Positions 56,685-59,185 of a DNA stretch of 64,000 bases are shown piece after piece. Both the position numbers and the translations under genes were made by a program. The stretch covers positions 998,734 to 1,062,733 of the forward strand of contig NW_012236530.1 of the NCBI RefSeq assembly GCF_000787575.1, given 5' to 3'. Position 1 is the stretch's first letter. Each line of letters starts with the position of its first letter. Under the pieces are notes generated by a model. That model saw only the letters and a program-made list of their open reading frames with translations. It was not told the DNA's origin and searched no databases. The DNA comes from Acytostelium subglobosum LB1. Taxonomy: Eukaryota > Evosea > Eumycetozoa > Acytosteliales > Acytosteliaceae.

Positions 56685-59185
56685 ATGGACCAACAACAAC
56701 AACAACAACAACAAAAAGAACAACAGCCACAACTACAACAACAAAAGGAGAAGAAGAAAGAACCAACCCATCTTGAAGCATTGAAACGTTCAAACCTGAT
56801 ACAACCACATCCAGATGCAGTGGACGATGCCAATGAGACAGGTTATAATACTTATTTGATCTCTGGTAGTATATCATTCAAGGTACCAATAAGATACAAG
56901 TTGATAGGATGCATTGGCTATGGTGCATTCGGTGTGGTATGCTCTGCCGATGACACTCTGGCCAATACAAAGGTGGCAATCAAACGTATCATCACATGTG
57001 ACTATGATGACCCCAAGCTAAGTCTCAGACTACTCCGTGAGCTATACACCTTAAGACATCTTAAACATGAGAATGTATGTGATACTCACTCATTCATTCA
57101 TTGATTGATTGATTGATTGAGTTCTAACAACTACCTACCTACCTCAACAACAACAACTCCAGATCATTCAGATTCTTGATATGTACATGATAAAGACGAC
57201 ACCAATGGATGAGTGTGAGGATGTGTAGGTTGATGGAGCATGATACGTACATCTTGGTGTTTCATAACTTGACTGACTGACTGGCTGACTGACTCTCATC
57301 GTTTATAGTTATATTGTTTCCGAATTGATGACCACTGATCTCCATAAGATCATCAATTCGCCTACAAAGTTGGAGAGTGATCACATTAGATATATCGTGT
57401 ATCAAATACTAAAGGCACTCAAGTTCATCCATTCTGGCAATGTGTTACACAGAGACTTGGTAAGTGTCACGATGTCACCCTGGCCTAACAACCATCGATG
57501 GTAATACTTATTTACTTACTTACACCGATATCTTGGATAGAAATCAAACAACGTGTTGATTAACGACGGCGATTCCTTTGTAAAGGTGTGTGACTTTGGT
57601 CTGGCACGTGAGGAGTCAGCACCTGGAATCATGTCAGAGTATGTAGAAACAAGATATTACCGTGCGCCAGAGATCATACTCGAATGGACTTTCTATTCCA
57701 AGGCTAGTGAGTGTTTAGTTGAGGACTGAGGAGAAGGGCAGGACATGGTCGGTGAGAGATAGAATTGGTGATTGTTGTCCCACTAACATATTCGATCAAT
57801 CAATCAATCAGTTGATATATGGTCAATTGGATGTATAATGGCAGAGCTTATTGGAAGGAAACCATTATTCAAGGGCGATAACTGTAGGATATCTAATTGA
57901 CTGAAAGATTGATTCCATGACTAACTGATCACACATACACACAATGATAGACGTTGATCAAGTCAGGAGAATCGTGAACATTCTTGGAATGCCTTGCCAA
58001 GAGGATATTGACCAAATTAACAATCAAAATGCAAGGGACTTCATCCGAAAGATTGTGCTGGAGAATGAGATTCCAAAGACATTCAAAGAGATGTTTCCCT
58101 ATGTCTGTCCATTAGGCATTGACCTGTTGGAGAAGATGTTGAAATTCAATCCAAACAAGCGTATCACCGCTGAGCAAGCATTGGCCCATCCATACTTTGG
58201 GATGGCGGAATATGTGAATCAAGAACCAGTCTGCTCCAAACCGGTCCAGATGTTCTTTGAGAACTGGGTCCTCACCAAAGACATGGTGCTCAGCCTGTTA
58301 AAGAATGAGCTCACCTTCTACCAGCCCAGGGAGAAGGACATACCACTGGAGCATCCCGAAGGGGACATGTTTGAACAACTTCAACAGCAACAGATTGATA
58401 TAGTTTCAAAGATAGATTCAAACTTGAGGCAATATCATTTATGCCAACAATGGAATTCTTTTCTGGACAAGATAAACAAACTCAAGCAACAACAAGAACA
58501 ATTGGAACAACAACAACAACAATTGGATGTGTTGGATAACATTTCAAAAGATCTTGGTGAGCAATTAAGCGACTCATGTCAATTCAATCATTGTAATGGC
58601 ATAACAAACAACGAAGAAGAACAGGTGGAGAACAACAATAATGTCAATGTCGGTGTCAATGTTGATGCCAGTGTTGATGTCAATGTCGATGTCAATGTCA
58701 ATGTCAATGTCTATGACTATGTCAAAGATCATGGAAACAGCAGAAGTCATACCAATGATATTTTCAATGGCAAAGACAACGACAACAACAATAACTACTT
58801 ATCCTCCTCCCCATCATCCCCATCAGCTCCATTATCTCCACCAATAACAAACACATCATCGTTATCATTAGCGATTCAATATGATGATAATACAAAGGAT
58901 ACAGACTCTGGAAGTGGAAGCGGAAAGTCCCCAGCTTCATCACCATCTCTAATTACTCTCTATAAAATGCAGCGACTTCAAAAACAACAACAACAACAAC
59001 AACAACTACAACTACAACAACAACAACAACAACTCCAGCCAAATCAACAAAACCAATTCGAGAAAGTATTGGATGATGTCTTTGATTTGATTTATTTGTT
59101 GTTATCTCTAATTGCACAAGTAATAGGTTCCTTGTTAATAATAATAATGTCATTTATAATGGTATTACCACCTAAAGATAAGTAA
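56685..59185 (+). CDS. Atypical MAP kinase with C-terminal membrane anchor
   Basis: CMGC/MAPK-type Ser/Thr kinase. Six exons, 56685-57074, 57163-57224, 57309-57459, 57541-57706, 57812-57883 and 57951-59185, give 691 residues. A Gln-rich leader is followed by the kinase domain (about 65-375): P-loop GYGAFGVV, VAIKRI, HRDLKSNNVL (HRDLKPSN in typical MAPKs), CDFGLA, and activation loop APGIMSEYVETRYYRAPE. The MAPK TxY site is Ser233-Glu-Tyr235 instead of Thr-Glu-Tyr, and RWYRAPE is RYYRAPE. The C-terminal 300 residues have Q/N tracts, a V-N-V-D repeat, and at the very end a 25-27-residue hydrophobic helix (IYLLLSLIAQVIGSLLIIIM on) with only PPKDK after it, the layout of a tail-anchored protein. 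Tail anchoring is inference; the kinase family is clear. Confidence 0.92.
58641..58714 (+). repeat. GTCAATGTCGAT-type minisatellite coding V-N-V-D
   Basis: Tandem 6/12-base units built from GTCAAT and GTCGAT/GTTGAT encode alternating Val with Asn or Asp in the MAPK linker. The perfect last units (GTCAATGTCAATGTCAATGT) suggest recent expansion. Confidence 0.85.

Follow-up and report, generated by a model that had tools for sequence, protein, structure and literature searches.

Sequence features suggest a membrane-fixed MAP kinase in Acytostelium subglobosum

Results

The window, by which we mean the whole stretch of 64,000 nucleotides of Acytostelium subglobosum LB1 DNA that was analyzed, contains at positions 56685-59185 (+) a six-exon gene that, when spliced by homology, encodes an ERK-type kinase of 691 residues plus a stop codon. 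In this homology-based model, exon 1 (56685-57074) contains the start codon, a Q-rich N-terminus, the glycine-rich loop, and the catalytic Lys in VAIK; it is followed by exon 2 (57163-57224), exon 3 (57309-57459), which extends up to HRDL, exon 4 (57541-57706) with the catalytic and activation loops, exon 5 (57812-57883), and exon 6 (57951-59185), which encodes the rest of the C-lobe, a C-terminal extension, a hydrophobic tail, and the stop codon TAA, all on the forward strand (+). The coding sequence is 2076 nt (0 mod 3), so that the exon phases add up as originally predicted; moreover, the C-lobe and the tail lie in the open frame of exon 6, bearing out the claim that kinase and tail share a frame within one exon. 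Pfam Pkinase matched residues 71-363 (211 bits), and the VAIK, HRD, DFG, and APE motifs are all present. The database entry for this gene, SAMD00019534_011920 of A. subglobosum LB1 (here P0010), comprises 426 residues and has a C-terminus identical to that of the 691-residue model. Because P0010 begins at what is residue 266 of the model, inside exon 5, it is without the N-terminal part of the kinase; about the first five exons are missing, and the gene should be re-annotated.

Three further features were noted in the window. A convergent gene with an RGS domain (59265-60167 (-); Pfam PF00615, 84 bits) has its stop at 59265, 79 bases from the stop of the MAPK gene. Upstream of the MAPK gene, ORFs at 54955-56532 (-) resemble, as judged by eye, a USP39-kind ubiquitin-specific protease. 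Finally, two neighbouring ORFs at 44123-45802 and 47872-50823 (+; 559 and 983 aa from stop to stop) carry similar terminal hydrophobic segments followed by similar basic tails and probably encode tandem related membrane proteins.

In the genome assembly searched (30.7 Mb, 56 contigs; the published assembly is given as 30.9 Mbp with 55% A+T, PMC4334915), one close relative of the window kinase was found, a sister copy located on the contig of the window itself (C54:1242.9-1245.1 kb; L021 1385-3605). The sister copy encodes 617 aa, is 67% identical to the window copy over the kinase, and has five intron positions identical to those of the window copy; its C-terminus lacks a hydrophobic tail, and no remnant of one was seen beyond its stop codon in three frames over 400 bases. 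In a tree of 39 sequences, the two copies were joined (100/100) and the pair grouped (96/91) with three dictyostelid-type ErkAs, i.e. P0124 (D. discoideum), P0125 (D. purpureum), and P0008, which are mutually 84-91% identical. The end branches of the window copy and its slower-evolving sister measured 0.70 and 0.13, respectively, and these asymmetric rates would fit a new role for the window copy. Judged by sequence comparison, ErkA was duplicated, and the window gene is the faster-evolving of the two copies. Over 388 codons, dN and dS between the two copies were 0.219 and 0.721 (NG86) or 0.229 and 0.641 (YN00), and the resulting dN/dS of about 0.30-0.36 indicates that the kinase has been kept under constraint. 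Together with the intact catalytic motifs, this ratio speaks against a pseudogene, without amounting to proof. Another MAPK on the same contig, A. subglobosum ErkB (L022), which we liken to the ERK7/8-like ErkB of D. discoideum (PMC6397043), differs from the window copy in that it is 40% identical to it, carries TEY, and has no tail.

Several motifs that are characteristic of the family are altered in the window copy; like the duplication, these changes were no part of the original prediction. Based on alignment and motif position, SEY stands in place of the activation motif TEY (residues 233-235; 57634-57642 (+)) and is followed by the P+1 loop VETRYYRAPE, in which the sister copy, with VATRWYRAPE, has A in place of E. 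SEY is present in both A. subglobosum ErkA copies (sister: L021 2392-2560). Among the 221 homologues in the matches listed, 217 were readable with a regular expression for the activation motif; 181 of these have TEY, five have S-x-Y motifs of other kinds, and none has SEY, while at the P+1 position occupied by E in the window copy 213 readable homologues carry A, V, I, or T. None of the eight new activation motifs described in a plant survey is SEY, a name that the survey applies to a different place (PMC4363184). At the common-docking site, the alignment places Y368 and Q371 (58211-58222 (+)) at the positions of both aspartates, the second of which is kept in the sister copy; among the matches listed, 2 other homologues likewise carry Q at the second of these positions. 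In human ERK2, phosphatase binding is disrupted by the substitution D321N at the second of these positions, and catalytic efficiency is reduced in most docking-site variants (PMC10252016). Dictyostelid ErkAs of the classical ERK1/2 type (P0124 and P0125) share the kinase layout with the window copy at 50-51% identity, but their activation motif is TEY, both of their docking aspartates are intact, and a hydrophobic tail is absent, so that the window copy differs in all three respects. Because of SEY, we term the window gene ErkA-derived rather than a typical ERK1/2.

A search of the genome with D. discoideum ErkA (111 rows of matches, a subset of which was translated) yielded no TEY-type ErkA; the highest identity, 78%, was in an exon of the sister copy, compared with the 84-91% shared among the three ErkAs, and the other loci translated were identified by eye as ErkB and other CMGC kinases. 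The classical ERK motif TEY of ErkA may have been lost in A. subglobosum.

As originally predicted, the window protein ends in a hydrophobic helix of 25-27 residues followed by PPKDK. Specifically, the segment identified by Kyte-Doolittle hydropathy, and forming a helix in an AlphaFold2 model, spans the 27 residues 660-686 (59087-59167 (+)), has a mean hydropathy of 2.63, and contains one Q and not a single D, E, K, R, or H; PPKDK alone (five residues; 59168-59182 (+), from the translation) separates it from the stop codon. All 19-residue stretches with a hydropathy above 1.2 in the whole protein start within residues 650-673; hence, with hydropathy as the sole criterion, there is no N-terminal hydrophobic signal sequence and no such stretch outside the tail. 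The helical moment over the segment is low (0.22-0.35 from residue 660 on), which fits a membrane-spanning helix rather than one lying on a surface. The net charge of the tail is about +1. Acidic residues immediately precede the hydrophobic segment, and these run against the positive-inside tendency of membrane segments. The AlphaFold2 model of P0010, calculated with 10 aligned sequences, has a helix at P0010 residues 349-420, which correspond to gene residues 614-685; across P0010 residues 391-420, the block means are 89-93 pLDDT. Because the model is poor as a whole (mean 62.9, pTM 0.35), it supports the helix and little beyond. It also contains, at medium confidence, a long Q/L-rich helix at residues 416-492 (58355-58585 (+)), after which the linker at P0010 residues 227-344 falls below 50 pLDDT. 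The suggested layout of a tail-anchored protein, i.e. the kinase first, a single hydrophobic segment at the extreme C-terminus, and five residues after it, is therefore present in the sequence, while insertion of the segment into a membrane, and the organelle concerned, are predictions. Taken at face value, the sequence suggests, rather than proves, that this MAP kinase is membrane-bound.

We also considered how widely such a tail occurs. Homologues were chosen by kinase similarity and comprised at least 221 matches, which do not represent a census; the first homologue search scored the 7985 candidates sharing most words. With a threshold of a segment of at least 1.6 in the last 60 residues, P0010 stood alone among the 221 homologues in the matches listed (0/220 of the others), in agreement with the claim that ordinary MAPKs are without such a tail. 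No close orthologue of the window copy was present among the protein database matches listed; the dictyostelid comparison consisted of P0124, P0125, P0008, and the sister copy, and other dictyostelid genera were not named among these matches. The original prediction held that orthologues lacking any hydrophobic tail would count against it, and for the family this is what we found: the sister copy and all three ErkAs are tail-less, and we therefore reject the idea that the tail is conserved among these dictyostelid proteins. The tail-less relatives indicate that the tail is confined to a single fast-evolving duplicate instead of belonging to a conserved MAPK design; they do not disprove an anchor in this protein. 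Borrowing of the tail from another gene was likewise rejected because a query with the tail matched itself alone in the genome; against the protein database, the same query retrieved P0010 alone among 27 candidates of about 380-1211 aa with E up to 10. A tail for which no relative was found and that is missing in the sister copy is either young or was lost elsewhere, and from these comparisons there is no sign of selection on it.

This leads to the strongest doubt about the anchor reading, which concerns the origin of the tail. It could be AT-rich 3' sequence that was drawn into the frame of a fast-evolving duplicate, neutral or destabilising in effect and with no anchoring function. The GC content declines along the gene: it is 42% for the kinase, 36.5% for the extension, and 27.3% for the tail, and drops to 8.7% over the next 80 bases. 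Among the last 132 coding bases, 39% are T, and T is the middle base of 25 of the 44 codons. In yeast, T-rich intergenic DNA is described as having a wide potential for encoding membrane segments (PMC7005711). Moreover, when we considered 135-nt frames downstream of ORFs of at least 200 aa in the window and the other loci examined, 59 of 315 were open, three reached a hydropathy of 2.0 before a stop, and one reached 2.6; none of these three overlaps the MAPK gene, and one (L035) is, at 3.07, more hydrophobic than the tail itself. On the other hand, when the last 138 coding bases were subjected to mononucleotide shuffling, the frame stayed open in 1425 of 100000 shuffles, and only 9 of these 1425 reached 2.6, so that the same base make-up rarely produces such hydropathy. 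Among stop-to-stop ORFs of at least 150 aa, whether real genes or not, 11 of 183 have a segment of at least 2.0 in the last 50 residues, and the MAPK gene has the highest. The shuffles and downstream frames together indicate that the tail is unusual, and yet that such segments do arise by chance in non-coding frames. Also speaking against an accidental tail are the anchor layout itself, with 27 charge-free residues ending almost at once in a stop, and the third-position GC, which is 0.50 in the kinase, 0.32 in the extension, and 0.30 in the tail, and is thus low throughout the extension and not in the tail alone. We consider an accidental origin with no anchoring function unlikely, and it is the alternative to be taken most seriously.

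Discussion

Of the readings considered, the one we favour, with somewhat more confidence than doubt, is that the window gene arose by duplication of ErkA, has diverged, and bears a tail anchor, which would most likely direct the kinase to the ER or other secretory membranes. In yeast, ER tail anchors have a hydropathy above 1.75, and a low tail charge favours the ER (PMC5450235). Because the hydropathy of the window tail is high and its charge low, the ER/secretory route would be the most likely one, provided that a rule derived from yeast and mammals applies to an amoeba. An ATPase of the ArsA/GET3 family is encoded in the genome; because this family also matched in 14 of 14 prokaryote controls, the match does not prove a GET pathway.

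We also considered that the tail is a genuine anchor whose destination is the outer membrane of mitochondria. With a value of about +1, the net charge of the tail lies close to the mean for mitochondrial anchors, 1.12 (PMC5450235), and DMPK A, a kinase isoform with a tail anchor, is described as acting on mitochondria (PMC2778554); by contrast, mitochondrial anchors are usually less hydrophobic, and the published classifier is mammalian and misclassified 14 of 43 proteins in leave-one-out (PMC5450235), so that it decides little here. On balance, a mitochondrial destination appears improbable.

Finally, it is very improbable that the tail is missing from the mature mRNA through an unusual intron or early polyadenylation: weak GT...AG pairs do occur in the tail (e.g. 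59066-59126 and 59120-59177) and two overlapping AATAAA hexamers lie on and just after the stop codon (59185-59194 (+), starting at 59185 and 59189), but none of these donors has G at +5, whereas the introns that homology defines in three MAPK genes invariably (13/13) combine a donor +5 G with a YAG acceptor, and the deposited protein includes the tail, although it may be a computed model. In line with this, no GT[AG]NG...YAG pair that would remove the tail was found for introns of about 47-261 nt with a donor in 58401-59185, and we reject a hidden intron of the usual kind.

Returning to the reading of an ErkA duplicate with an ER/secretory tail anchor, we propose the following scenario. ErkA would have duplicated in the Acytostelium lineage, with the window gene as the derived copy, while the tail-less sister would retain a kinase of more ancestral character. 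The hydrophobic helix at the end of the long C-terminal extension would either have been acquired once ErkA had duplicated or have disappeared from the sister. This helix would insert after translation as a tail anchor, at first into ER/secretory membranes, leaving the kinase facing the cytosol, and the Q/L-rich helix together with the low-confidence linker might form a long flexible arm with which the kinase reaches away from the membrane. If the kinase is active, the anchored copy might phosphorylate membrane-local substrates, and tethering could stand in for the weakened docking site. More tentatively, and with more doubt than confidence, we suggest a constitutively membrane-tethered ErkA duplicate in which, with the docking aspartates lost and the P+1 loop changed, specificity stems from location instead of docking, in a genome in which no TEY-type ErkA was found.

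As a rule, MAP kinases are soluble, and their specificity comes from docking motifs and scaffolds. No membrane-anchored or tail-anchored MAPK was found in the titles and abstract starts listed for open-licence papers, and no publication matching erkA in Acytostelium was found in the open-licence literature. DMPK belongs to the AGC family and, thus, to another kinase family than the MAPKs. As proposed here for the window copy, DMPK A is anchored to an organelle by a C-terminal tail, which differs from that of the window copy in that it comes from a splice isoform (PMC2778554). A tail-anchored kinase is, therefore, already known, and a tail-anchored MAPK, which the sequence suggests here, would be new as judged from the papers listed.

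If true, a natural tail-anchored MAPK would represent a case in which evolution has traded docking for a fixed location, and the A. subglobosum genome, with its tail-less sister and its tailed copy, offers a pair in which this can be tested; CRISPR editing has been reported for diverse dictyostelids (PMC13046832). A. subglobosum forms acellular stalks without cell-type differentiation (PMC4334915, PMC4058090), and we speculate that a rewired ErkA branch could bear on the development of this organism.
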